Shown here: positions 1 through 64,000 of the stretch, piece after piece
How positions within the stretch are numbered: position 1 is the first letter of the stretch
How the letters are laid out: every line of letters starts with the position of its first letter
Assembly (NCBI RefSeq): GCF_037975245.1
Contig: NC_092572.1
Location: 24,893,989 to 24,957,988, forward strand
DNA from: Apostichopus japonicus
Lineage: Eukaryota; Echinodermata; Holothuroidea; Aspidochirotida; Stichopodidae
Length of the DNA stretch: 64,000 bases
Reading direction: 5' to 3'
Made by a program: the position numbers and the translations under genes
Notes under the pieces: generated by a model
Database searches by the model: none
Told to the model about the DNA's origin: nothing
What the model saw: only the letters and a program-made list of their open reading frames with translations

Positions 1-3000
1 ACGCAGCGTTATGCAATTCTTCCCAATTCGGTTGGTATCCTGTATACGAATAATGACGGATCGATGACAGATTGTGTTTTATATGACATCATCAATTTCT
101 CGTTATGAGAAAACTATGTTCTATAAATTTACAATGACATTACATGAAACTATTTACGAAGTAGAGTATCTTTCCTTTCCAAATCTACATTACTGATATG
201 GATTTATTTAATTGGACCATCAATCTGACATGATAATCACGACGCTTCTAAAACTATAATATGACAGACAGGTGATTTGAATTAAGAAAGGCTTACAATT
301 TAGTGACATTTTCTGAAAACCGATCAAAGTAGATCAAATGCCAGTCAAAAACTTATAGAAAAACACTTTTACCTTCCTTGTGATGACTGACGTAAACTTT
401 TACAAGCTCTTGATTAACGTCTTGCTTTAACTTCAGGCAGTGTGGTAGAAAAAGTTGAACAGGACGTCTGAACTGAAGTTTGTTTGGGAGAAGTTCCACA
501 GTCACAGAGGAATTATCCGTGAATGATTTCGAATGTGCCTCAAACCTGACATTAGATACAATGTTCATCTCGATGGAACACGGCTCTGTCAGAGCGTTGG
601 GAGGGATTTCCAACTTCACATTTGTTCCGTGAATTCGCATATTTTGTCCATCTACGGACACCAACGACTGTGTACTCAGAGGAGAAGAGGTGACTGAAAC
701 AGAAAATATAGAATGATAAATTTTTATGAAATGAGAGTAGTTATTAGAGTTGAAAAAAATGTAAGATAATATATAATAGTGTAAAGGAAAGTAAATTTTG
801 GTAACAAGTAATCAATGTTCTATGCATAATGTAACTATTGATACGTATATAGCATATCGATTAATAAAATTATTAATTCACAGTTCATTATAGATGGTAA
901 AGATTATGCGCAATGAAAATGATCAATCATAGTCTTATGAATAATTTTCCTGAGAACAGAAAAGAATAAACGACGCCACATCAACAACCATCATGAGCAC
1001 TTCCATTCTGCCCGTTCTACATTAACTTACTATTGAAAAAACAAGGTAAAAAGATAACTCAGGAAGGAATGAACTAATTTATCGACCAACGATTAATTAA
1101 TCAATTTACCTGAGCCCCTTGATACCGGTGAATTACGGGCATATGCAGCTGCCTCGGATTCAATCATTGGATCAGATGCTGGAGGGTTGAAATAATGTTG
1201 TCTTAATTTAGTCATTCCCAAATCAGAAATCTACAATAGAACAATGAAAAAAAAAACATGAATGAACTATTTCACATTTACTGCAAGTTTTATGTTAAAC
1301 AGAACAAAACACACATATGAATTAAACACAATGACATGTTTTGCATCAATAAGGCGGTTAATAGAAACAGAATGACCGTAGTATCAGTTATAGTTTCTGG
1401 AATTACTCGATCGCCTAAGGATGTCAGTAACAATATCATTAACGATACGAGTATATCAAAGTTACCTTTAAATTTGAAAGATGTTCTTGAGCATGTTCTG
1501 TCTCAAAGACGACGTCTCTGTCTTCATCTTCATCTACGAAACATGAGAAAATGATAAAAAACAGTAGTACAATATTAAAATGAAATGCTTTATAACTCGA
1601 AAAATTGAAAACATGGTAAGTGATGAGGAGCATGAATTAGATTGTAGTTCGTTCTGTCGATATTTGAATACAGACGTCTCACTAACAATGTACGTTCATT
1701 TGTCAAATATTATTGTTTCAGATTCATGAAATAATACGTGAATTATTTTGACTGTTGTTTGTTGAAAATTAAATTAAATAGTTCGTGCGATTATGACTGA
1801 TGATACTCCTGTAATTTCTTACCTCCTGACGAGTGAGGCTTCTTGGGGTGAATTTCACTCGTTGTGTCATAGTACTAAAAATGAAAACAAAAATATTCAT
1901 CAAAGTAATTATCACAGGCTTCTTCACTGACATCGTAATGACACAAAATAAACAGAAAATATGTTTATGATAGTATATAAAAGTTAGAAAGTCTAGCATT
2001 TTGATCCTTAATGAATCTTCTTCTGAGGCTAGCTGAAACGAAAGCAGACCAAAGAACAACGAATATAGCAGATTTAGACATGATAGTGAAGAGAACCGCT
2101 GACGGAAGTTTACAAGCGTCACGTGAATGAGCCGACGTAAACATCACTACAAAATAGCAAACTAACAGTCATGGGTGACAATATATGGTATCTTTTAACT
2201 GAAGTAAAAGCTGACATATACATGTTTCTATTTGAAAGTATAAAAACTTACTGTGGACTGGCCAAAATTACTAAAGGGTCAAAGATGTGAAATGTCAAAC
2301 AAAACAATATGCACGTAACATTCGGAGGGATACACTATCCTTTATTATTTAATGTATTAAGAGAATCGGGCCTCCATAAAGAACCCTTTTCAGAATATTT
2401 ACTAACATCTCTTCTAGCTAGTTTGCCAGCTGGACTAGCCAATCAATATTTCGAATAAATAAGTAAAATCCGAGGTTTTTAGGTTTTAATCAATAAGTCA
2501 AACCACCACAAAGCAATTACATCAATGTAGTTTTATAGATAGACTAGTCAAGTACAACAACAATACAAAAAAAATGAACAAAAGAAAATAGAGTATAACA
2601 TTGAACTTTATGTATGTGGTAAATACGACCACGACTCTGTGTCTGGATGATAAATTAGTGTGACACCGAGTTAATTGCAGCCAATAAATATTTACGTTTT
2701 TAAGACAATTTCGATCTGCATTTGAGTAATTCTCTTTAGATTTGGTAACATTATAGAACAAAAGTAACATGGTGCATTAAAGGCAGGAGTCTAGCTTATT
2801 TGGAAAAGTATATTCATACAATACATATATTGTCTTTTTGACATACCTCGGATACCTCTGATTCCCCGGAGGAATCAGTTTCCGCATCGGATTCTGACTC
2901 ATCTGAAGGCTCATATTGCTCTACCTTGCCTGAATGTTTTGATAGACAAAATAATGAATGCATTTGAAACTGTAAGAATAATTCATTTTTCAAGACTGAT

Positions 3001-15163: not shown

Positions 15164-17438
15164 TACTTATGGTTGATGAAATATATATGCCAAAGTTCGA
15201 TCTGATAAATGCATCTTAATATTGGGTTATCCTAGTTCATATTGGGAATGTTAACAAGGTTCAATGTTTACTCGTAACTATAATTAAGTCACATATTTAT
15301 ACGTTGTATCTGTATTAATAGCGAACGCTGTAAATGGAATTGCAAATGCACATTGTTTCGCAGTGACTCTTAGCAGGTGAACAAGTTTACTAGTATGTCG
15401 GTGGTGTCAAAACTACTACCTCAACGTCACTAGTGCAATGACAAATCCTTCCTTATATCTTAAAGTATGTCGATATATTCCAGTATCACCAGAATTTGCC
15501 TCATATTACTGGGGTCAATATCTATGACCTTTCACTACTTATCTTAAATGATACGGAAAATTGTGAGGTCGCTGATATCTCGCTCTATATAAAAAAAAAA
15601 AGTTTAATAGTGCGAAGCGATGTAACAGAAAAGCGCAGGATAACGAATTTCGTCTATACGCCAAAGTATGAATGGAGTCTACAGGTGAACGATTCTCAGA
15701 GTGACCTTCGGTCGATATTTCTAGAGGGAGTCAAACTTCAGCTGATCTCTTATGTATTCATCATACTACTTTAGTCTGAATATTCGGACTTAAAGCTTAG
15801 TTTTTTGTAGTTCCGTGCAGACGTTACACCATCCACAATCCAAACAGACTTTGATACTACGAAACGAAAGTAAACAATCTTATCTGATCTACTAATTGGT
15901 TGACCTTGCATAGCATATGTTCAACCAGGTACGTAATGCGATCGTGATCAACAATACTCACTGCCATTTAAATATATCAAGTACAGAACCAAACTGAATG
16001 ATGATACTGATAACGGAGAATTGGAAATATGACAGTTAGGGATTCTATGTCATCCAGAATTGATAGCGTAAGGATCTACGATATTGGGTTGCTTATCAAT
16101 CGCCGCGTGCCTACGTTGAGTGTTATAACAACGGTACAAAGTAGCAGTAACATATTCAATCGTATATTATGGTAAAATAAAATAACAATCTGTCCTGTAT
16201 AGTTTAACATCGTAGAGAGTAAATTTTGTTGTTTTGCAGATTATTGCTTATGCCGTTAAAATTGTATCACACATGCCGTGATAAAATTATTCATGGTTAT
16301 GAATTTACCGCTATGCACACTAGACAGTGCTGACATTTTCATTCACTTGATGACATGATTAAGAAATGAAGAAAACGTAAACAATAAACAGTAAATTAAT
16401 AATATAAAGCAACAAACAGTCAGGAAGCTATTTAGTCTTCTTTTGTGTCCGTTCTTCTGTAAATTAAATTAACGCCCACCTTGTGCTGCCCGATGGCATG
16501 CGTGAAGGAATGATTAAGTAAGGTATATGTTTTTTTTCACTGTTGTCAAAAATGGTTGCGAGTATTTCTATCCATGCATAAAGGGATATTGAAAATATTA
16601 TCTTAAACAAAAGACAAAATAAATCCAAGTTAAACCGGCTATAGTTTAGCGGGCAGTTTCTTTCATCAACAAAATAATGTTTTTCGATTTTTATGATTAA
16701 TACTTTACATTTTGATCCAAAATTATGTGAACCAATACTGAAGGTCACTCTTACTGGCTTTGAAGATTAGCATTCATCATGTACATTTCTGTTGGGATGA
16801 TGCCATGTACATATAAAGTGTACACGAACGTGTACAGTTGTATTGTTGTAGCAAATGTGTTCCTTTTATTGCACACGATGTCAAGTATTTCTCTTAACTG
16901 TGGGAAAAGTGAAAGTCATTGGCTACTTCTTCAACTTGTATGAATGCTTCTTTGTTTAATTACGGGGTAAACCATCACGGTTATATTATTAATAAAGAAT
17001 TGTTCGCCTCAAGTGAGATAAACTGATGCATAAAATCACCAAACTATGAAGTAATGGGCATAGTATCATTGTAACGAAAGTGTAACCAAGCAAAGCATTA
17101 ATAAAGGCTGCTTAATTATTAACTCCGTAAAATCAAATAACTGTCATTCTTAATATTGCTTTGTAAAATGCAATCACTTTCGTTTTAAGCTAAGAAAAAA
17201 AAACTGGAATTCATTATAGCAGATTGAAGTAGGACAATCGTTGTAGTTAAAGGATGGCGAAATCCATCGATAATCAATATTGAACAAATAACATACTACT
17301 ATCTGTGTCTTTGCGAATACTGGAAGGTTTAGTTCTGGAATGTTTGAAATGTATATTTTATATTTGCGAAAGCCACTTTTGACGAAGAGTTAAAAGTTGT
17401 ATTAAGGATTACAATTTTTTGGGTATAAAGATTTCACA
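15164..17438. other. Intergenic region between divergent genes
   Basis: About 2.3 kb separates the minus-strand propeller gene from the plus-strand Ig receptor gene. It probably holds both promoters. I see no TATA box or CpG cluster I would defend, and the open frames at 15496-15774 and 16464-16748 have no recognisable domain. Confidence 0.5.
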
Positions 17439-27251
<9,813 letters not shown>

Positions 27252-28052: not shown

Positions 28053-30049
28053 TCGGAATTTGTGGACTATTTCTTGCTTCCTATTGTATTAAAACAAAGC
28101 ACCTATGTGAAAGACACAAATCACATTCTTAAAATTGTGGAAGCCATGTATACCAATACTCCCCAAGGGGAGGCATTAGATATATGTCAAGAAGTCTATG
28201 AAAAGGCGGAAAAAAACCAATATGGAATAAATAAAATATCTTCCATATCCATGCGCAAACTAATTGAACTTATTTTTAACAAGAAACTGTTTCGAGTTCA
28301 ATAACCAATTCTATCTACAAAAGATCGGTTGCGCCATGGGCAGCCAAGCCTCTCCGGAAATCTGTGATATCGTCATGCATAGACTGGAAAACCAGATTTT
28401 ACCGACAGATAATAAAATCTTAAAATGGCTCCGCTATAGAGATGAAATTCTATTGCTTTACGACGGTTCACCTCAGGAACTTGAACAACTAGTAAACAGG
28501 TTAAATGAAATTCACTGCTTCTTAAAGTTTACGGTAGAAATATTACACACCGAGGTAACATACCTAGATTTGAAAATCTTCAAAGGTCCAAGGTTTGAAA
28601 CCAATGGGTTATTAGACACCAAAGTCTACACCAAACCCACGGAAACCTTCCAATACCTCGACAGAAACTCTGCACACCCACTTGCCACTTTTAAAGGCTT
28701 CATTAAAGGGGAAGTCTTACGATACACACGTCCCTGTAACAATGAGACTAACTTCTTACAGAAAAAGAATGCGTTCACAGAGAAACTGTTACTCCGTAAC
28801 TATAAGAAAGAGGAAATTGCCTCAGCCACGAAAGGCATAAAATTTGAAAACCGTGGGCAATACCTCACTACCAAACCTAAACAAAAGGAACCACCAATGG
28901 TGTTCAAGCTTACCTATACACCCCATATCAAAACCACGCATTTGAAAAATGTACTTTTGAAACATTGGCACTTAATCTCGCAACACGCGGACAGGGTCGT
29001 AGCCAAGTTTTTTTGTTGGGGGGGGGGTGGAGGATTTGATTTGCCGACGGATCTGGAAGTGGTGACTGAATGGGGGAGGGGTCTAAGGGGAGGGGGTGTC
29101 CCCCTCCCCTTTGGAAAATTTTTAGTCTTGAAACGTCCTTAGATGCAATCTGGTGCAAACTTTAAGTCAAATTTGGCACCGTAGAATTTCCATTTCGATA
29201 TTATTTTTATGGCAGTCAGCAGAAGAAGAATTAATTGGGACCAATTATCGAACTGTGTTTTTTCTTTCACCGATCGTTGAAATAGTGAAACTTCGTGATG
29301 AAAATGTTCAGAAAACTTTCCGGTAATGAGAAATAACAACATTCATTGATATACAAGCGAGAAACGTTAAAAATTGTGTACAATTCGTGAGCCGTGTCCT
29401 TAAGTTTTCCACGGAGAACGAATGACATCTGCGATGACGTCATTCTGAACAGAGGATAATAACAACACGTTGTCACACGATAGAACGAATCATGGGCTGC
29501 GGCCTATACGGAAGCCTTTAATTCCATTTCTTTCACTGAGTTGCCGGCGATTCTGGCACTCATCTAGCTGAGCCTGGCTACAGTAGCTATACTGACGGCC
29601 GTGACATTATCAGTTATTTGCCGAGAGGATTTTAACTTGCAGGCGTCGGGTGATTGGATTGGTGAATGAGTTTATCAGATGAAGAACTGGAAAATCGAAA
29701 TAACCGATAAAGAAGCTCCCGTTCTCCTTTTCTCTATTCAGCTTTCCTTCTTTCTTCCCCTTCCGCTCTCTTCACCTTTTCTCCTTTTGCCGACAGACCC
29801 AAAATTTGCCGACAGCGACCAAATTATTGGGGGTGTGACACCTCACCCCCCCCCCCCCCCCCCCCGCTCGCTTCGCCCCTCCACGCGGAATTATCCAAAC
29901 TGTTTCAAAAAGAACCGATTCTAGCCTACAAAAGGGCCCAAAATCTCAAAGATTTACTTGTTAACTCAAGGTTTCATACTAACGAAGAATCAGCTGACTC
30001 CCAAGGTTCACACGAAGCTCTTTTAGATGCTCTTATAGCTGCACTATGA
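28053..30049 (+). pseudogene. Penelope-like reverse transcriptase remnant, frameshifted and interrupted
   Basis: The C-terminal half of a Penelope-type reverse transcriptase is readable: VKDTNHILKIVEAM, then after a frameshift near 28300 the signature CAMGSQASPEICDIVMHRLE, then FLKFTVEILHTEVTYLDLKI. The catalytic Y-x-DD is YRDE, so one Asp is lost. After the 28991-29888 insertion the frame resumes with the family motif PILAYKRAQNLKDLLVNSR and ends at TGA 30047-30049. The N-terminal half is absent because the inverted arm directly precedes it, and no GIY-YIG domain follows. The copy cannot be active. Confidence 0.85.
28991..29888. mobile_element. Insertion in the Penelope-like RT with 7 bp target duplication
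   Basis: The 7-mer cacgcgg occurs at 28984-28990 and again at 29882-29888. The RT frame before the first copy continues without shift after the second. The inserted block has weak inverted ends (agggtcgtagc against aggggcgaagc), G- and C-tracts, and an internal stretch similar to the G-rich left part of the enclosing composite at 27550-27690. It has no coding capacity. Confidence 0.8.
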
Positions 30050-31523: not shown

Positions 31524-31670
31524 GCGTCCATAGCATAGTGGTTAGGGTGTCCGCGTACAGAGCGGGAGGCCCGTGGTTCGAATCCCGGTGGAGGCTGAAA
31601 GTTTTTTCACTGTTCTTGATTTTCCAACTCATTACGATTTTCATTTATATATATATTATATATATATGAT
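31524..31670 (+). mobile_element. tRNA-like SINE
   Basis: The first 72 bases fold as a tRNA-like unit: acceptor halves gcgtcca and tggaggc pair at six of seven positions, the anticodon stem tccgc/gcggg pairs fully with G-U allowed, and the B box ggttcgaatcc lies at 31575-31585. The T stem is poor and the would-be anticodon (aca) is not a normal one, so I call it a SINE head rather than a functional tRNA gene. An A/T-rich tail follows. Confidence 0.58.
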
Positions 31671-52115: not shown

Positions 52116-55100
52116 TTATTTCAGATCGCTGGAAATGTCGTTCAGTTGTACAAATGTAGATCGTGAATATGCCAGTGGCTTTGCCCGCGATGTATTACTG
52201 TGTACCAATCCTTGAACGCTGCCATTGGGTTTCTCTGGAGCATAAAACAAAAAAAGTAGAGCCGTTCATGAAATAGGATAGCTGTCTGAGATCCAAAACA
52301 CAAACTTGTTTAGCGGCGAGTCCGATTCTTATGTAACCATGTTAGTTTCAACTTTTCCATTTGTCAAAGTTTCATCTTATGTTTCCTTCAAAATTATTGG
52401 TAGAAACAAAGAAGAGTATCAATTTGAAATGCATATGATTTATATATGAGGACTTGGAGCAGTCTTAATATTGCTGCAATAGTTATTGAATTATTACTCT
52501 TTTATTTAATTAAAGAGATTTCTGCTGTGTGAGCAAAATGAGACAACTTTACAGACTACTTACCGCCATTCATCGCGAAATCTAACAAACTGTATAGAAA
52601 GTAAACAGAAAAACAAAGATATTACTAGTGGAATATTCAAGTGATGATGATAGTTCCAAGCGTTAGCGAGACACTATGCTAATAAAACGTATCAAGGCAT
52701 CAAATATAGAACAATATATATATTACAGTACTTAGTTGTTAAAGAGATTTGTTACTTATGGCTATGCTTCTCAACTCACCGATTTTGCCTTCGTAGATAC
52801 ATATACCGACAGCCATTTTCTTTCTAAGTCCCAATTTTGCAAAATTACTGAAAAAATAACTAAACTTTTAGATGTATTTGTGAAGTAAATGTTATTTACC
52901 TCTGCCTGGTATTGATCATCGGTCACCATATCACCACCACGTTTTTCCTTTAGTGAAGAAAGTGAAATGAGTTAAATCACCATCTTTGTTATCGTCTGAA
53001 GCGATCACGTTAGGAATTTCATAAAACAAATGATATGTTGCATTGATGGCTTAAAATGACAAATGACATGATAAATTACGATATTTTCATTGAAAACACT
53101 TCCCGACAGTCAAATAGTTTAGTGGAAATCATGGCTCACCTTCCATTTTCCGGTCGAATCGAGACGGTACCAAAATGAAATTGGTATCCACAATACTGTT
53201 GATGGAAACATAATTGAAATATTATTTTATGTGGATTCCTTCTGACTAAATGTTTAATTCATATAGGCTTCTACATAAATGTATCTTAAAAAACAACAAC
53301 AACGTTCAGATCCACTTACACACGGAAATGTCTAAATTATTTATTCTTACTGACCGCTGTATAAAAACTTTGCTAACTTTAATTGACTCACATGTTTTTT
53401 TTATTTTTTTTATAATTTATCTAGAGTTTATTATTGTAGAACATGCACTGACGTACATTAAATATTATATACACTTACAAGGAATTATTGCTTGCATTAT
53501 TCGAATCGAATTGTGTATTTTCTCTCGTAGTACAGTTTGGTCTTAATTTTCCTTGTTTTTTAAATTGTTTTTAATGATACTAAATAACAAGAAAAGGATA
53601 AGAAAGAGATATTGCCCTGTACCACGAATGTTCTTATGTTGAAGTTGAGTCAAACTGTAGGTATCATCAAATCCATCTTCCGGTAGCCAGCAACATTCCA
53701 ACCTGGAAGAAAATGCAGTTTTGTAAAACATGGATGGTTAAAAAGTAGTAATGATAGAAAAAACATAAGCACAGTAGTTGTGTACTTCTTAAGAGAACAA
53801 ATGAAAATCAAGTTAAAGATGGTAGTAAAGACGACATTTCCTGTTCTAAAGACTACCGTCAGACCTTTACATGAAGCTTGCAAAAGTCATATGAGTCTGC
53901 CTATATTGATGAGTTGCGAACTGAACTTACTCCACTTTTTGGAGGTCCCTGCAGCAAAGTATGTACTTCAACATGTTCCGCGTTTCTTCAGTAGAGAACT
54001 CTCGACCAATTTCCGTTATTTTAAGGCATTTAATGTAAGCCAATTTGCTAATCTGTAGACCCGACGTTAAATGAATGATTCCTCCTGTTGTGTCAGCGTG
54101 ATGTACACAATCTTCAAGATGTAAACATTTAGTTTGAATCTACAGTAAATAAACGTTAACAGTTATGTGAAATTGGTGTTACCGGGTGTAATAAAGTAAA
54201 AATCACTCACAAACTCATTATGTTCGTATTCAAACCATTATACAAGAAAGAGAACATGCCCATAACGTAAAACAAACTCAGGCGTATTGAAAGTAAATGA
54301 ATGGCTAATTTATATATTGCTTAAATTGAAGAATTTTTCGAAATGATTTCTTCATGCTTAATGAATAAATATAAGTGAACTGTACTAACCTCAAGTTTAC
54401 ACGCGATGTCAATTAACTGTAATGTAGACCTCTGAAGAAGCTTGCTGCTGTCCTTACTTAAGAGAACTGTCTCTACGCAAAGTTCCTGAACATTTTCTTT
54501 AATCTTTTCAATTTCATCTGTTGTTTCAAGCAAGCAAAGAATTGCAAATTTGTCACCATCTTTAAGGCTTTGCAGGTATTTAATAATCCTAGGAGCCACT
54601 TCTGGATTAAGCCCACATGCAAATCGATAAACATATTGGAGATTAAACGGGTCTAACCGACTCATCACTTGAGCTAATTCAAAATCTGATATTTGCATGA
54701 TATAGTTAGAAAGGAAAGTTGCAGCATACCATTCACAAAACAGTTTGTGATGGAATCTTACTTCAGTAGTTTCTTGAATATGCTCCGAATCTGAAATACC
54801 AGGCTTATCTATGATATTGGTTACATCTTCAGCCACCAAAATACCAATTCTTATAAAGTTTGAATAAACTTCCTCTCCCACTACCGCTAACATTTCTTGT
54901 TTGTTCCAAGTTATCTTCTCTTCTTCTGCAGAAAGACCGTTAAATGCTAGTTCATCCAATCTTGCATGCGATTCTCCAAATGCACGAATCTTTTCAGCAT
55001 TGTCATTATCTTTGTTGTCTTCATGGCCATAAAAACACGATACAATATACCGGAAGAAGGCAGTAACGGAGTGAAAAGTTACTTGGTTATCCCATTTATA

Positions 55101-58100
55101 AATGATATGAGCATACATTGAGAAAAACAAAGGTACTACCATAAATTCACCAAGAATTGGACTTTCCTCCATACGCTGTTTTATCCGTTCTGCGACATTT
55201 GGATCATCTTTCACCGCCTTACGAATATATTCATTCCTCGCGTTCTCATCGAAGCCTGACAATCTAGCAAAGGATGTATTTGGCGCTAGTTCCTTAGGTA
55301 GAACATTTGACCTTGTTGTTAATATGACTAAAGCATTTTGAAACATAGACCTTTTTATGATATTACATATATCGGTTTCTTCATTCCGATGAGGAAACTC
55401 ATCATAACCATCAAAAATAAAGACGACAGATGGGCTCTTTTGAAGAATATATTTTACGTCATTGTCGTCTAAGACGGTGTCCGTCGGAAGCAAAATGTGT
55501 TTTATTGCTTGGAATATAGATGTTACACCTTTTAGTCGTCTGAGGCGAAGAAAAATTAACATGTCTACGTGTTTGAGGGGTGATTTTGAGTTTCCTGTAC
55601 ACCACTCATACACCAATTGAAGAGCAAGAGTTGATTTGCCCTGTCCGGGATCACCTTCTACAACTCGTAAGAATGACGTTATTGGATATTCTTTTACGAC
55701 AAGACACTGATAAGATCCAAGAACATTCCAGTTAGGCTGTCCTCTTACTCCAGTCAAAGTTTGAAGCTCCATACAGCCTTCTACAAAAATATCGCCTATG
55801 CCAAATATTCCGTCTCGAATGAAAGGAACTGGTCGTATAGTGCTGTACTGGTTTTCGTAAGTTGTTTTCATTTGTTGAATAAACATTGCCATTTTCTCTG
55901 AGGGAAGCAACAGAAGAAAATCCGTTTTACTTTACCAGTCACCAACGTTTGGTGATGATATCTTAATTACTGTAATGTTGGCTAACTAAATGTTTGTTTG
56001 TTTGAATGGCATCACAGAATTACTTGATATGAATAAAGTCAGCAAATGATTTGCGAATTCGGTGATAAATTGAACCAATCTCCTTGGTCGATTGTAAAGC
56101 GTGTTTCTAATCGCCTGGAAACAGTACAGTCCTGTAAGTTTCACAAGATGGTCATTTTGTTTTGTCAAGTGCATGCACTACTGCCACTAAGAACTGTAAA
56201 CTATAACGTTTCCTGAATATGCTAAAATGGAAACATCACGTGAGTTAAATTGTTAAATCATAATAATTACCATAGAAAAACAATCATGAATTATTTCCTT
56301 CTTTTGTTAAGCTTTTTATCTGTGTCAAAACATTATAATATAAGCAGATGGGTTATTTTGAAACGTGACTGGTATTGTGTCATCGGAATGCATCATCAAC
56401 GTATAACATTTTCCAATAAAAGAATGGGATATGTGTTATTGTACATGCAAAATTCTGCTATAGAATCAAATTGAAGGCAGCTGGAAGAAAAATACATGAT
56501 GAAATGAATAATACCTGAGACGCCGTCTGTGGATCCGGGCAGCATTGTGTTAAGCTAAAGTTGTATCAATAAAAAAGAAATATTCTTAGAAAAACACTTG
56601 GTTTTATTATTATTGCTTTTTTTGGGCTTAAAATTTATTGATATTAAAGAAAATCGTATAACATACGAATAAATTTCGATGCAATTGTTCCTGAACGGAA
56701 ATACATTCAAAAAAATTAAAGTGTTGAACTTGATTCTTCAAAACCAAAAGCCACATATATTCCTGCAACATCTCAACCCTTTTAGTACACACGATGGTGC
56801 TACACACAGCGGTTACTACTGACTACTAACATACACGAAATGTTAGCTAAAATAATGTTGAAGAGTTCAAGACGTGTCTAGCCAAAACATTACTAAATAA
56901 GACCAATTTTCGTCCGCTACAATTATCAACGAGATCAATTTAAGTAATAATTTAAAAAATAATTGTTTGTTTACTTACTTCAGTTCTTTCGGGGTCTTCT
57001 ATGCTTGTCCTACTTTTCCTGAAGTAAACTGCGTGAGAAAGAAACAAATGAAAGAAAATAAGAACCAAGTTACAAACGATGATGTTATAGTTGTCGACAC
57101 CAATTGTCATACAATGCAATTTAATCCTGAACAAACTGTAATTCCAATGTTATTTTTAGGTTGCAAGAATACATGTTTAGCATATCACGAGTGTAAATTA
57201 GTGTTGTAATGTAACAATACACTACACATACAAGTCCTGTACATTACCTCTGAATATTACAGCAGCAATGATCAAGATGATAATTACGACTGCAGTAGGA
57301 ACCAAAATAATCGGCAACAATTTTCCCGGCTTTCCAACCGTTTCAATTGTTGACGATTGTTGGCTGTGGCGTAGACTGGATGTTGTAGAGATTACAGGGT
57401 CTGCATGAATAAAAAGGAACCAAGTCATTTCTTATAGTAATGCATAAACAGTTTAAGTATGCACAACTTTTTGAGACTTTCTCAATCTTTTAAAGATCTA
57501 AAAAAAAAAAATCTAAAAAAATCAGACTTATGACAATGATGACGACAATGGCGAGTACGATATTCATAACGATGGCGATGATCATGTCCAAGTGACGGCA
57601 ATGAAGGGGGTTATGGGTTACATGATTTACAAGAAGGTAATTAACTTATTGTATATCATATAATACAACCTACTTCCGAGGATAAGTAAGTCAAATTCCG
57701 TCGACCACTGTGGTATTTCACTGGTTGATCCATCTGTATCACAAACCAACGTCAATCTGGATACATCGTTTGTAATAATCTTGAAAGTAGAAGTTAGCAC
57801 AACGTCAAATGTGTTGCCTTTCGATACAACTTCTACTTCTTTCTTGGAAAAGGATATGGCAGTTGAATGTTTTGCGTAAAGCGTTCTCCAGCTAAGTGTA
57901 ACCTTTGGTCGTATTCCATGCAAAGAACATGTTAAGATTCCTTCTTGGTTAACTTTTAACACACAATATTGATCAGCTCTGCAACCATTAATGACAGGAT
58001 ACGCAGGAATTGGATTAACTAAAAAGAGAAAAAAAATACCTGTGTCACGAACGCTGGCATGACTTACATTTGGGGTTGCTGACGCGGGGGGGGGGGGGGG

Positions 58101-61100
58101 GACGCTGAGTTACACACAGTGAAATCACGAGTCAATCTCAAGTTGAAGCACAGTCGTTCTCGAACTTGGAGCATATATTATCATAGTCTGATATCCATTA
58201 ACGTAAGAGTAATACAAACAAAGCAACACTGTTCTTCCTTCGTTTATTACCGACGTGTGCTTATCCTAACGTCTACATTTCCAAGATTAAGGTAATGTAC
58301 GTCCAACGAGGTGCTATAACTACGGGGTTTTTTCCACCTGGACCACGAACTGGGATTTATTAAGCTATCCACTAACTTTCAACTCGTCACTGAATTGGAC
58401 CGTATTCTATGCTTTAAAATCTCATAAGAGAACTTTTATTTCTCTTTTCATATGTGTTTTTGTCCTTTACAGTCGGAAATATTTGCAATACTTTGAAATG
58501 CATTCTAAAGAAATTGAATTCCTATATCTAACTACAAGAAAAACATGAAATGTCTCCGAGAGCTGCAGCTTTCGATGGATTTTACCTCTGGCCCCCACTC
58601 GGTACTCTTATACATTCCAGAGAAATGTTTCTCTCTGACAACGGATTTAGTTTTTAAAGTCGCTTAAGACAACAAGAAATATCTCCAAATGTTATGCCTT
58701 CGGGAGAAAATAAAATCCGTTCTAGTCCATGTATTTTTGTGCTTTAAATTTGCTTGGAATGAACACGACATAATAAACACTATCGCTTTCGGGGAATTCC
58801 CCTCCTAGAATCCTCACTACGACTTGAGCTTTATAGTCATGCAGCTTTATAGTAATGCAGCTCTCGGAGATTTTCCTCCACTACACCCCTTCACTCCCCA
58901 TCCCTAAACCTCTCACACCTGTGCGTCTAGACAATAGCAGTGTACTTTGTAAATGTGAAAAACATCGCCAATTTAGTTGGTTATTCCGAAAAGTTGCTCG
59001 GCCAGTCATTACAGTCAATCCCAAAAGATTGAGTCGGTACCAACATTATATTACACCTCTTGCAAAATGGTGAATGTACACTACTGAATGTGGATAATGT
59101 TTCACGCTAAAGCTTATAGAAATAAATGTCAAGAAATGAAATTGAAATAGCTGTCAATGACAGCTTACTTACTGTACACAAACAGGTGGTACAAAGCAAT
59201 GTGATCTGTTATACCGTCACTGTAAATACAAGCGTATAGGCCTTCGTGTTGTGTTTTCACGTGTTGTGTAGTTAAAGCACCATTTTCATCAAGCTCAAAG
59301 TAATCCGTGGTAGCATTCTCAAAGTACTTATTGATAAAAATTGCATAACCGAGATTCTCAAATCTGTTGTCATAAAGTCTTCTCCAGATTAGGAAAGATT
59401 TCTGCTCTTCAGTACATGTTATTGTCACCACTGCATTTTCCTCAACAGCAATCATATTGGTAGTGGCCGTTGTATAGTCCACGCTTCCATACAGTATTAA
59501 AATCGAAGACTCGTTACAATAAACAAAATGTGAAGAATCGTTTGCTTTGCAGACCAAAAGCGACAATGAAGCTGCATCAAAATGATCGTCCATCATCAGT
59601 GAAGAAGAGATAAATGTCACATTATCCTTTATAACCGATTTAGCTTGTGTTGTCATGTATTGGTCACCTGCTTCACTGCGTTTCGTCCAGTAGGGGTCAA
59701 TTTTTGGTCGTGAATGTATAGAGCATATGACTTCACTTTCACGTTTTATTTCTTGTGTGCACACTTGCTTGTCTTCCCCGCATAAGTTAATGACTGGACA
59801 TCCGGAAGGTTTGACTGTTAAATATTAGTATATATTGTATTAATATTAGAAAATATAGTGCAAGATATGCTTGTATATATTCGCTTTTTTGATAGACATC
59901 ATCCCGAGTATTGATGCTATTAGAAATTAACATTATGGTGTTTTATTGAATTCATTCTAAATTTAATTTTGGCAATCCGATGATTGTAGCAGAATTTATT
60001 GGTCAATTGTTTTACTCTATGGCATGATAAGAAAATTTTAATTCTATGATAAGTGCAATGATTCAACTTTATCCATCGAGGACACTTTATTATGGTCCCA
60101 ATTAGATCTATTTAATAAAAAGTATATATTACGTCATATCAAATTTGCGTAACAAGTAATCTGGTACACAACTAATACTGACGAAGGTTTAAATAATAAA
60201 TTTTGTATCAATTATTTTCTTCTAGGAAACCGACTTAACATATTAACGATTCATGTGGTGTGTGGATGTAAAATACAAATAAGCATGTAATAATTGTAAA
60301 GTTATTCTCACCTGTAGTAATGACATCTACATGATATGTTATTGGTTCTTCAAATTCTGAATTAAATATCAATACCGCGAATGTTCTCTCGTGTGCCAAG
60401 ACAATGTTCTCTATCAACAGCGAACCATCAACAGCAACTGCATACATACCGTTGTCACAACCACCACTTGACTGCTCGGCACTTATGCAACTTACAATTG
60501 GTTTACCTTGTACAGTGTCTATGGAGTCATACCAATGAATTGCATGGAAACCGATGTCAAATGAGCATTTTATGGTTCCTTTTCGTCCTAATTCAAGATA
60601 TTGTCTCGGTTCGCAGTCATCGTTAACATCTGCGTCTGCTTGGATAGATATAAAGCAATTGAAGCAAAAATAGATCTTAATATTATAGAAATGAAATGTC
60701 AATTATATTCAATTTTTATGCTTAGCTTATGAGAGTACATTCGATTTAAGGCATTCAACGTACTATAAAACAAAACAGTCGCTACTTCGTTAGTAAACTA
60801 CAGTATTCAAAATGTTAACTGTCATCTCAAACGCAATAGCGTATTAGGTCTCTAAGTTATCATTCAATAGTTGGAAACCGTTGAACAGACAAGATGGATG
60901 TTCTGGAAACTGAACACCTGTGTTCCTATTGGTACATATATTACAAAGATAGCTCCTACTACAACCTGCTGTTTTAACGGTTTCAGTTTTGAAATGATAT
61001 TGTTATCTAGACTTTGGACTGACAAATAATCAATCTCAGTTACGTATTGACTTTAATAATGTTAAGCAGCACAGATTGTTTACCTTCCATAACAACTACT

Positions 61101-61153
61101 AAAGTTGCCTGTGCAGCAAACGACAAAATGGCCTCCCTAAACTTGTATTCCAT
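52116..61153 (-). CDS. Ig-domain transmembrane receptor with intracellular NACHT NTPase and LRR-like tail
   Basis: Exons: 61153-61084 (signal peptide), 60635-60312 (Ig1), 59814-59173 (Ig2 and Ig3), 58018-57674 (Ig4), 57400-57248 (membrane span, about residues 488-510), 57028-56979, 56554-56515, 55897-54390 (NACHT), 54139-53931 (LRR-like). The end is ambiguous. The exon starting at 53702 can read to TAA at 53543 (1166 aa, hydrophobic end), or splice at 53626 to 53195-53140, 52947-52900, 52823-52780, 52589-52564 and 52234-52116 (1236 aa). All phases match. The NTPase has Walker A GDPGQGKST (about 623-631), Walker B VVFIFDGYDEF (about 699-709), sensor-like LTTR (about 737) and the winged-helix-type FHHKLFCEWYAATFLS. 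The LRR-like exon shows LHLEDC and CLKITEIGREFS. NACHT proteins oligomerise on ligand sensing. Here the sensor would be extracellular Ig domains, an inference from gene structure. Confidence 0.86.
58083..58102. repeat. Poly-G tract in an intron of the Ig-NACHT gene
   Basis: A run of G residues in the intron between the Ig3 and Ig4 exons; likely length-polymorphic. The rest of this 1.15 kb intron shows nothing further. Confidence 0.8.
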
Positions 61154-62024
61154 TTGTTGTTATTAAGTTATAGGCTAGTCGACCACGAATTTCTTGTGAA
61201 CTTTTGTTCGACTTTACTTCATCGTTCACTGTATTAAACCACAACACGAGTCATGCATCTCTTGAACTTTAACAGTGAGGTTTATTCAATTGGCTGTGTG
61301 TGAATTTGAACACAAGAACATAATACAAACCTCCATTACGTATGGGCTATGGATATATATGATTTGAAAGAGATGACGTCATATTTTGCTTAAAAACAAG
61401 ATGATGACCTTTACGTGAAAAGCTCAGTAAAATGTTGCTCTGCTTGTGGAATAAAACGTCAACATTGTGTAAGTCGACAACACTTTGAAATGTAATGTCT
61501 TCTTACAGTTATGAAAAGAAATCTTTTACGTATACACTTACGTCCCAATGGTTCACAAGGCGGAAAGTCAAGCGGTATGTTATTATGATTAACATGTCAG
61601 TCGTACTATAAACTTCACTGCCTTAGAAACGGTACATTACAACATCCATGCATACCAATGCAAACTATCAATGTTACACCAAACGTAGATATTTTACCAG
61701 TTTCTTTGAAAGTTGTTTAACAGAATGCCTTACATATATTACATATTCTGATTATGAAAGTTGAGATTAAGGGCCAAGTTAAGATATTGTTGTGCACTTC
61801 TAGAGCAATTTCAAGCACAAAAATACATTTCATTATGAGAAATGTATCTTGGAATACATCCCAGAGCCCAGGTGGGGTTCCAGACGGCCAAGTCAACACC
61901 TCGTCAATAGCTGCAGCATTTTATCTTGTTGTCTTTACCTTTTCAATTGCAAAGGCCTATATTGGTAAAATGAGTTATTCTGAATGCAATTATGTATCTC
62001 TTAAATATTATGTCTGGCGTTATT
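61154..62024. other. Upstream region of the Ig-NACHT gene
   Basis: This should include the promoter of the minus-strand receptor gene. I see no core promoter element or repeat that I would defend. The plus-strand open frame 61754-62167 overlaps the LINE remnant and is spurious. Confidence 0.5.
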
Positions 62025-64000
62025 GCATTCTCCCTGCCCCTACATTAAATAGTACATTTGTTATCCACTCAATGCATTTTTCCTCTGATGCCATAATGAT
62101 TAAGCTGATAAAGCAAAATGTTGTGGTCGATACTGTCAAACGCTTTCGAAAGATCAAGAACAAATAAAATGAAATCGTATCAATATCTAGGGCATTGGAC
62201 AACTTGCCAACCGCGTCAGCAAGTGCCAGCTCCGTTGAGTGTTTAGGCCTGAATCCATATGGACCATTAAACAATACGATGTGATTGTTAATGAAGTAAA
62301 AAATACGATTATATACGGTTCTTTAAAAAATCTTAAAGAAAGTTGAAAAAAGAGAAACTGGTCTATAGTTGTCATCATGTATTGGGTCACCTTTCTTATA
62401 AACAGGAATGACTTTAACAAGTTTGACCTGATCTGGAACAATCAACTTGTCAGAGAGCAATTATAAATGTAAACCAGGGGTTTGGAAATATATGCAATAA
62501 CTTTTCTAACCAGCCAGGTTTCATGTCATCAAAACCTGCTGATTTAGACAAACCAGATAAAGCCACTGTAATGAGTTCTTCCTCATTTGTTGGTGTCATC
62601 AAAACTGTATAGGAATTAGGCCTACCGATGTAAGAATTAGCAGTTGTCCTACTCTGAATAGCTGCAGCCAAAGAAGGTCTAAAATATTAAATTCTTTTGC
62701 AATTTCCTCAGGATCAGTCAGTACATTGTCAATAGTTTTTTTTGCGCTTTACTGACTGGAGAATGCCACTACCTATCCACGGGTGTCACTTTTTCGACGT
62801 TTAAAGTTGGTTAAGTAGATAAACGGAAAACAAATATCATAAACATCTTTCACAGTGGCAGTAAAATTATCGTACGATGAATTTACGTTATTGTCATTAT
62901 AATTATGGTCCCAGCTAAGATCACTCATCACTGAGAGAGAAGGATCGATGTTGGCCTTGGAATAGTTTTTTGTGAAGTAACCATTCTGGTAGTTCCCCTT
63001 CTAAAACTTAGTAAATAAGAATATTGGAAAATGGTAACTGTTGACGGTGATTAGCACCCAGACAACAATTAGCCCTTACATTGGTAATTATGTGATTGAT
63101 TAAAGAAACACACTCATATTTTGTTCGTGTAGGCTTAGTAATACAAGGAAGAAAGTTACTTAAGAAAAACATGTTGAGTATTTCGGAGGAATTTTCCTTC
63201 AATAGATCGATATTAAAGTCATCCATAATATATAATCTCTGAATCAGGTTTCCGAGAACCCAAGTACTGTAAACTCATGGTCTAAGAGAGATAGGAAGTT
63301 AAAGATAGGATCAACATTTTGTTCAGACTCCGTCTATTCAAATGGAAAAAAAATGTTCATGTGTTTTAGTTTATTGAAATTTTCAATGTTGTAGTACTTA
63401 CAGTGAGTAGAGTTTTTTTAATCATCGATGAATGGATAGGAAAGATTTAAGGTAAGATCGAAAGAATTCCTGTTTTGTGAATGATTGACATTGAACAAGT
63501 CAAGAAAATCAGTCGTTGGTTACCATACTAAAAGAAAACTTGACATTACAGTACACACAGGTCCACAACCTCGAAGAACAAACATAGTTAATAATACCAG
63601 CAATATGGGAAGAAACCCCACATTTTTGACAGCTTACACGATTAGTAGAACTTAAAGTGGTTTTACATTTACAGCAATAAAGTGGCATAGATGAAATAAA
63701 GAGGTAAAGAACTAAAAAGGAAAAACAAGTGTCGAGTAAATAATTCTATTGGATCACCTCAGTTTAAACGGTATTTTCAGCAGGAACCTGCTGGTCAACT
63801 ACAATCTCTGAAGGTCGTTGATGCCACAGATTCGCTTGGTGAATTCCGTACCATTTTTGTTAATTAGGGAGATGATTTTCCATTCCGAAGAAGCGGTGGC
63901 AGTTTCGTCTTGAGAACTGCTCAACATCATTGGTCTCCTTAAGCGCCCGGTCGCACTTATATTCGAGAGAGGACATTTTATCTTGAAGTTTCTTCAATTT
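62025..64000 (-). mobile_element. Decayed non-LTR retrotransposon (LINE), truncated by the window edge
   Basis: Reading the minus strand from the right edge: an ORF1-like coiled coil with SRRNCHRFFGMENH (about 63990-63860), an endonuclease end with DDFNIDLL and PCITKPTRTK (63226-63008), then reverse transcriptase pieces KSAGFDDMKPGWLEKL, VKVIPVYKKGDPIHDDNYRP, NGPYGFRPKHSTELALADAV and, in another frame, DLSKAFDSIDHN and YGIRGKCIEW. Several frameshifts separate these blocks, and the copy stops abruptly near 62030, within the RT domain, so it is dead. The motif set fits the Jockey/CR1 group of LINEs; the clade is not resolved. Confidence 0.8.

Follow-up and report, generated by a model that had tools for sequence, protein, structure and literature searches.

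A further Apostichopus japonicus gene that joins Ig domains and a membrane span to a NACHT module

NOD-like receptors (NLRs) are taught as cytosolic sensors, and the vertebrate proteins NLRC4, NOD2 and NLRP3 are cytosolic, with a CARD or PYD before the NACHT domain and a long LRR region behind it. A 64,000-nt stretch of the genome of the sea cucumber Apostichopus japonicus (contig NC_092572.1, positions 24,893,989 to 24,957,988; hereafter the window) raises the question of whether a single gene can place Ig domains and a membrane span before such a module, as a sequence-only reading of the stretch had proposed, and on which side of the membrane each part of the protein would lie. The gene occupies the minus strand from 61153 to 52195, where its stop codon ends, and has 14 coding exons (Table 1). 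All 13 introns follow the GT...AG rule, those behind exons 1-5 are in phase 1, and the reading frame is unbroken through 3591 nt, encoding 1196 amino acids (136.3 kDa; isoelectric point (pI) 5.24). In order, the protein would comprise a probable signal peptide, Ig1-Ig4, a stalk, the membrane span, two short juxtamembrane exons, NACHT and a C-terminal unit; NACHT and the parts directly behind it form one long exon, and the C-terminal alpha/beta unit is spread over six small ones. Of the single gene proposed earlier, the exon places, splice sites and frame hold, as does the joining of its parts described below; the coding length given for it (3501 or 3711 nt) does not.

Evidence for one protein comes from P0001, an independently annotated NCBI protein of A. 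japonicus from a 34.6-Mb contig, which is identical in every letter to residues 87-1196 of our model and joins the span to NACHT via the same two short exons. It begins at Met87, inside the Ig1 exon, and contains neither exon 1 nor the beginning of Ig1. Each of eight relatives (P0005, P0012, P0013, P0025, P0027, P0028, P0037 and P0111) consists of one uninterrupted frame (1117-1624 aa) from a contig of 3.6-8.2 kb and aligns with the window gene across 9-12 of its 13 junction positions (the check took in 9 of the 13 rows with the source label lgn, the ninth being the short Ig-span form P0102, which crosses 2). Since unspliced DNA would be expected to carry introns there, we read these eight as spliced transcripts. 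An end of the Ig and membrane-span exons before NACHT, an outcome the earlier reading had allowed for, is contradicted by P0001 and the eight relatives. These data support a single protein that combines an Ig chain with a membrane span and a STAND ATPase.

It is possible, if rather doubtful, that the locus also yields additional products: internal initiation could give a cytosolic NACHT form, or termination behind the span a decoy. An in-frame ATG in a good context (AAAATGG), favourable to a separate start, lies at 55892, five bases inside the NACHT exon, and translation continued beyond exon 5 would add eight residues before a stop (open reading frame (ORF) 57222-57431). In a relative, P0102 stops shortly behind the span with a basic tail; however, it is a different gene. 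The suggestion that NACHT has its own start fares unevenly: P0001 joins the full receptor, and the ATG together with relatives devoid of Ig and span would permit an extra isoform.

Among nine upstream candidates for exon 1, the one at 61153-61084 has the highest donor score and comes second in hydrophobicity, and it probably encodes a signal peptide. The earlier proposal of a signal-peptide exon is nevertheless weaker than stated, since the NCBI model lacks this exon. An alternative first exon, 61833-61734, is more hydrophobic with a weaker donor and was rejected. The four Ig domains are likewise less firm than claimed: Ig3 is best seen by Pfam (V-set 3.5e-5, 24.4 bits vs. a cut-off of 26; Ig_3 0.003), and Ig4 is weak in the window protein (C2-set_2 only 0.11) and reaches 0.00024 at the same place in P0002. 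Ig1, which has no Pfam match of its own and by eye misses the usual F-strand cysteine, was assigned by homology, and Ig2 by homology and the predicted model, which excludes the first part of Ig1. On these assignments several Ig-type domains precede the membrane span. Cysteines at residues 150, 162, 220, 265 and 327 of exon 3 and at 358, 364, 376 and 438 of exon 4 are present in every filled alignment row (30-31 rows); across Ig2-Ig4, 10 of 12 cysteines are kept in 97-100% of filled rows (30 or 31), and the other two, 137 and 231, are nearly unique to the window protein (3% of rows each). When pairs of relatives were binned by their NACHT-HD2 identity, the ectodomain (Ig2 to Ig4) was the less similar part in five of five bins (for example, 0.33 vs. 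0.54 in a bin of 121 pairs). Looser constraint on Ig loops, without selection, could be the source of this lower similarity.

Behind the span, the NACHT domain is complete, as had been claimed: Pfam PF05729 matches residues 620-772 at 1.9e-20, with Walker A at residue 623 and Walker B at 703. The profile of this region matches NLRC4 at 5.1e-18, and the predicted model resembles NLRC4, NOD2 and NLRP3 from NACHT through the helical part behind the winged helix, such that both Walker motifs and an NLR fold behind NACHT are all found in the window protein (two of the structure predictions used mixed alignments, of 39 and 23 rows). Among the 11 Pfam families matching the protein up to an E value of 1 there is no N-terminal CARD, PYD, BIR or Death domain, the slot being occupied by the Ig and span parts, and no LRR family; nor does an LRR family appear among the 25 shown of 27 Pfam families found for 39 members up to an E value of 0.01. 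The "NACHT/LRR" label given to the gene is therefore not borne out at the sequence level. The model ends in a short strand-helix-strand-helix-strand element, so that the C-terminal end is at most LRR-like. By a count of an LxLQSGxW-like motif, which overlooks the window protein's own degenerate copy, this unit occurs once in 51 of 112 rows, two to six times in 19 and not at all in 42; P0046 has six and P0042 and P0045 five, at a spacing of 152-168 aa in the rows printed. Modelled, like the others, as part of a longer chain, the four units of P0043 show repeated strands and helices and align along NLRC4 up to the chain end with a large root-mean-square deviation.

The membrane span is as clear as had been stated, at residues 491-509 with a Kyte-Doolittle value of 3.34 over 19 residues, and it is helical in the predicted structure (P0001 407-432). 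The single other stretch over the hydrophobicity limit, 789-807 (1.72), lies 169 residues past the NACHT start and 166 past Walker A. In the profile alignment it pairs with LRNLMKTPLFVV in NLRC4, which is soluble and has a known structure, and a peak 164-170 residues past Walker A is at or over the limit in 19 of 56 NACHT-only and MGN-start relatives, all without a span before NACHT; among relatives with a span it recurs 166-174 residues past Walker A in 11 of 39. Because this second peak matches soluble NLRC4 and recurs in span-free rows, we count one span. The accessible text of PMC8699970 assigns two (483-503 and 776-795) to AjNLRC4, a protein of the same species, the second 176 residues past the stated NACHT start; compared by reported positions, this second "transmembrane" segment would fall where the family has a NACHT helix.

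We read the Ig-span-NACHT proteins as putative single-pass type I receptors. The window protein has 4 K/R in the 15 residues behind the span vs. 2 in the 15 before it, the same excess occurs in 36 of 39 rows, and this charge bias together with the conserved Ig cysteines speaks for an Ig part outside and NACHT inside. An inverted topology, with Ig inside, NACHT outside and an extra span before the Ig part, has been claimed for another protein, AjNLR-new (PMC13133943, in its accessible part), on the basis of a TMHMM prediction alongside reported binding of a NACHT fragment to cells. We consider it very improbable for the window gene: a signal peptide is readily miscounted as a span, which we suspect flipped the prediction, the charge excess lies on the NACHT side, the conserved cysteines suit a secreted fold, and a NACHT of such a fold should require nucleotide, which is cytosolic.

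How widely is this order shared? Compared with about 5.8 billion proteins, a 1140-aa query found 101 matches, 32 of the first 33 covering at least 80% of it, and P0002 (1190 aa, 136.3 kDa, pI 5.30) is 40% identical over 98%. An ectodomain search gave six matches, five of them from A. japonicus, and a profile search at 1e-30 gave 15, including A. japonicus and Holothuria leucospilota (scoring in the protein and profile searches covered the 7994 and 7992 candidates, respectively, that had the most words in common). We classified 108 sequences (107 matches and the window model; the rows stand for clusters and isoforms and do not count genes) by a hydrophobicity rule applied 90-170 residues before Walker A. 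A span was found in 39, at 118-166 residues before Walker A: 18 from A. japonicus plus the model, which is the same gene as P0001, 13 from H. leucospilota and 7 with the label lgn. The advice to look among echinoderms for the same order was right. A loose signal-peptide rule was passed by 25 of these 39. The NACHT-only class holds 50 rows, including a few far relatives; 6 more combine NACHT alone with an MGN start, and 13 belong to no class. An unrestricted hydrophobicity scan gave strong peaks at the same span place and, in some rows, weaker ones inside the Ig part.

The window gene clusters with P0002, P0003 and P0004, all Ig-span forms of A. japonicus (support 100/99). A quick tree of 69 rows, which included a far outgroup, placed 24 of the 26 NACHT-only rows in one 26-row set together with two Ig rows (support 85). 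A careful tree of 40 rows, chosen out of 116 matches and without an outgroup, needed two changes between Ig-span and NACHT-only forms and did not reject a single NACHT-only clade (p 0.536). The NACHT-only forms of both species could thus be one clade. Over the NACHT exon P0114 shows 90% identity, and the similarity runs on into the same intron, which makes it the likely orthologue in a closely related species. That the window holds a dying, functionless copy, as an uncertain first exon and the lack of a seen transcript might suggest, is hardly credible given 3591 nt without a frame break, intact motifs and a NACHT exon kept intact in this near relative. A merger, in the reading, of two adjacent genes, one for an Ig membrane protein and the other for a NACHT protein, would fit the internal ATG, the relatives without Ig and span, and P0102 with its Ig part and span but no NACHT on a 2.2-kb contig; this too is most improbable, and we regard it as ruled out by P0001, where the same two short exons unite span and NACHT, and by the eight uninterrupted relatives, both parts sharing one frame there as in many annotated proteins from two species.

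Several relatives depart from the common plan. P0027 is a single frame of 1624 aa with five Ig-type domains (by eye), a span, NACHT and two C-terminal Death domains; the Death stretches (Pfam 4.5e-23) lie behind the C-terminal unit on one contig, and a chimeric contig is possible. An Ig-span-NACHT-Death protein is reported in none of the titles and abstract openings listed from searches of the open-licence PMC literature, of which only one named Death domains (10 of 77 matches listed). P0047, P0059, P0060, P0080, P0083 and P0084 are NACHT-only proteins with an MGN start, followed by basic residues in several, and these starts resemble an N-myristoylation signal; a search of the open-licence PMC literature for myristoylated NLRs gave no paper with all of its terms. 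P0102, in which Ig domains and a span are followed by a short basic tail, looks decoy-like. By eye, P0010 has two tandem NACHT modules in one annotated protein. P0099, a jgi protein, has Ig, NACHT, a Pfam LRR and a weak Death match, with no span by the rule used, and is perhaps a separate joining of Ig and NACHT.

The receptor design had been thought novel; in fact the same architecture was published in 2021 from the same species as AjNLRC4, with membrane localisation and function (PMC8699970, accessible text), so the design is known and the window gene is a further member of the family. AjNLRC4 (MN607598) shares with it the order Ig, span, NACHT and the want of a CARD, with similar positions (span 483-503 vs. 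491-509; NACHT 600-757 vs. 620-772), and differs in the two spans counted in the paper vs. one in the window protein. Two AjNLRC4 primers encode GTPQYLEL and AFPVVSGC: the first has its best match at the Ig1 start (residues 26-40) in 17 of 25 full-length rows (window, 5/8 letters at residue 32), and the second at the Ig4 start (348-361) in 16 of 25 (window, 5/8 at 351). Each of seven primer or small interfering RNA stretches differs from the window at 5 or more places, which rules out identity. By description and primers, the window gene is of the AjNLRC4 kind and not AjNLRC4 itself. AjNLR-new (PIK48001.1; PMC13133943, as far as its accessible part describes it) likewise has Ig, span and NACHT, and its 1197 aa, 136 kDa and pI of 5.34 nearly equal both the window model and P0002; it differs in the inverted topology described for it. 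By length, mass and pI it could be either of these genes. In another sea cucumber, Chiridota heheva, the accessible part of PMC8913654 lists "other domains", Ig V-set included, in 6 of 53 NLRs. Vertebrate NLRC4, NOD2 and NLRP3 share the fold from NACHT as far as the helical part that follows the winged helix, whereas the window protein has Ig domains and a span before NACHT and one short LRR-like unit behind.

What might such a protein do? For AjNLRC4, the accessible parts of PMC8699970 and PMC11932488 report surface location, microbe binding by the Ig part, dimers after Vibrio infection and uptake, as well as binding of beta-actin by the inner part (dissociation constant 5.87 uM) and lytic death by way of a caspase and MLKL. 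By analogy, we consider it fairly likely that in the window gene an outside Ig sensor drives a cytosolic NACHT switch. The Ig chain would bind microbial or self ligands, and ligand or clustering would gather the cytosolic NACHT blocks, which, judging from motifs and fold, may rest ADP-bound like NLRC4 or NOD2 and open on nucleotide exchange. The inner parts could then assemble under the membrane and recruit partners such as the beta-actin and caspase of AjNLRC4, with phagocytosis or lytic death, both reported for AjNLRC4, as the possible outcome. In NLRC4 the module before NACHT is the effector CARD and here it is a sensor, so output would have to come from NACHT or the C-terminus; Ig and span appear to replace the CARD, and the sensor and effector ends look swapped. 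A bolder and distinctly tentative extension, which we think rather unlikely as a whole, is an inverted class of NLRs with an N-terminal extracellular sensor and the effector in NACHT and the C-terminus (as in the two Death domains of P0027), in which ligand would nucleate an inflammasome-like disk under the membrane and NACHT-only relatives, some myristoylated, would co-assemble.

Several points weigh against an outside sensor on an inside switch. No transcript of the window gene itself was seen, the NCBI model does not include exon 1, and NACHT also occurs without Ig in the 50 NACHT-only rows. The charge rule fails in 3 of 39 rows (P0032 and P0040 equal, P0037 reversed), and the opposite orientation is claimed for another member in the accessible text of PMC13133943. 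The AjNLRC4 and AjNLR-new papers have authors in common. Ligand binding, oligomers and nucleotide binding are properties that we infer for the window gene. The papers cited here treat single members, with conflicting topologies; this sea cucumber group, with at least two genera, joins an extracellular Ig chain to an NLR switch on the reading we favour, and with the gene and its relatives one could test directly whether a STAND ATPase can be driven from outside the cell, and how the sensor and effector ends came to be exchanged.

Table 1. Coding exons and motifs of the window gene, with the basis of each assignment.
Feature	Position	Strand	Basis
Exon 1, probable signal peptide (MEYKFREAILSFAAQATLVVVME...)	61084..61153	-	donor phase 1 into Ig1 exon; absent from P0001
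Exon 2, Ig1 (Ig-like)	60312..60635	-	frame, splice sites, homology to Ig1 of relatives
Exon 3, Ig2 and Ig3	59173..59814	-	Pfam on Ig3; beta-rich model; conserved cysteines
Exon 4, Ig4	57674..58018	-	weak C2-set_2; conserved cysteines
Exon 5, stalk and membrane span (residues 491-509)	57248..57400	-	Kyte-Doolittle; helix in model
Exon 6, basic juxtamembrane segment	56979..57028	-	K/R count; included in P0001
Exon 7, short juxtamembrane segment (LNTMLPGSTDGVS)	56515..56554	-	included in P0001
Exon 8, NACHT, then helical and winged-helix parts	54390..55897	-	
Walker A, GDPGQGKS (residue 623)	55632..55655	-	
Walker B, FDGYDE (residue 703)	55398..55415	-	
Exon 9, start of C-terminal LRR-like unit	53931..54139	-	alpha/beta elements in model
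Exon 10, C-terminal unit	53623..53702	-	included in P0001
Exon 11, C-terminal unit (WIPISFWYRLDSTGKW)	53140..53195	-	included in P0001
Exon 12, tail	52900..52947	-	included in P0001
Exon 13, tail	52564..52589	-	included in P0001
Exon 14, last coding exon with stop	52195..52234	-	included in P0001

At the position of exon 7, many relatives carry EGIPMM-like letters, which by eye are degenerate in the window gene. No further family copies were found in the window by tblastn with the 101 protein-search matches at 1e-5. Elsewhere in the window, two ORFs at 17406-20238 (+) give weak Ig matches (Ig_2 0.0003; C2-set_2 0.0046) and are perhaps part of another Ig gene, and an ORF at 353-811 (-) carries a ZU5 domain (Pfam 2.6e-11). 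Reverse-transcriptase-like letters were seen by eye at 62187-62441 (-), and the neighbouring ORF 62020-62322 has no Pfam match. A reverse-transcriptase fragment lies at 28264-29142 (+; Pfam 9e-6, under its cut-off), and Rfam identifies a tRNA gene at 31524-31596 (+).

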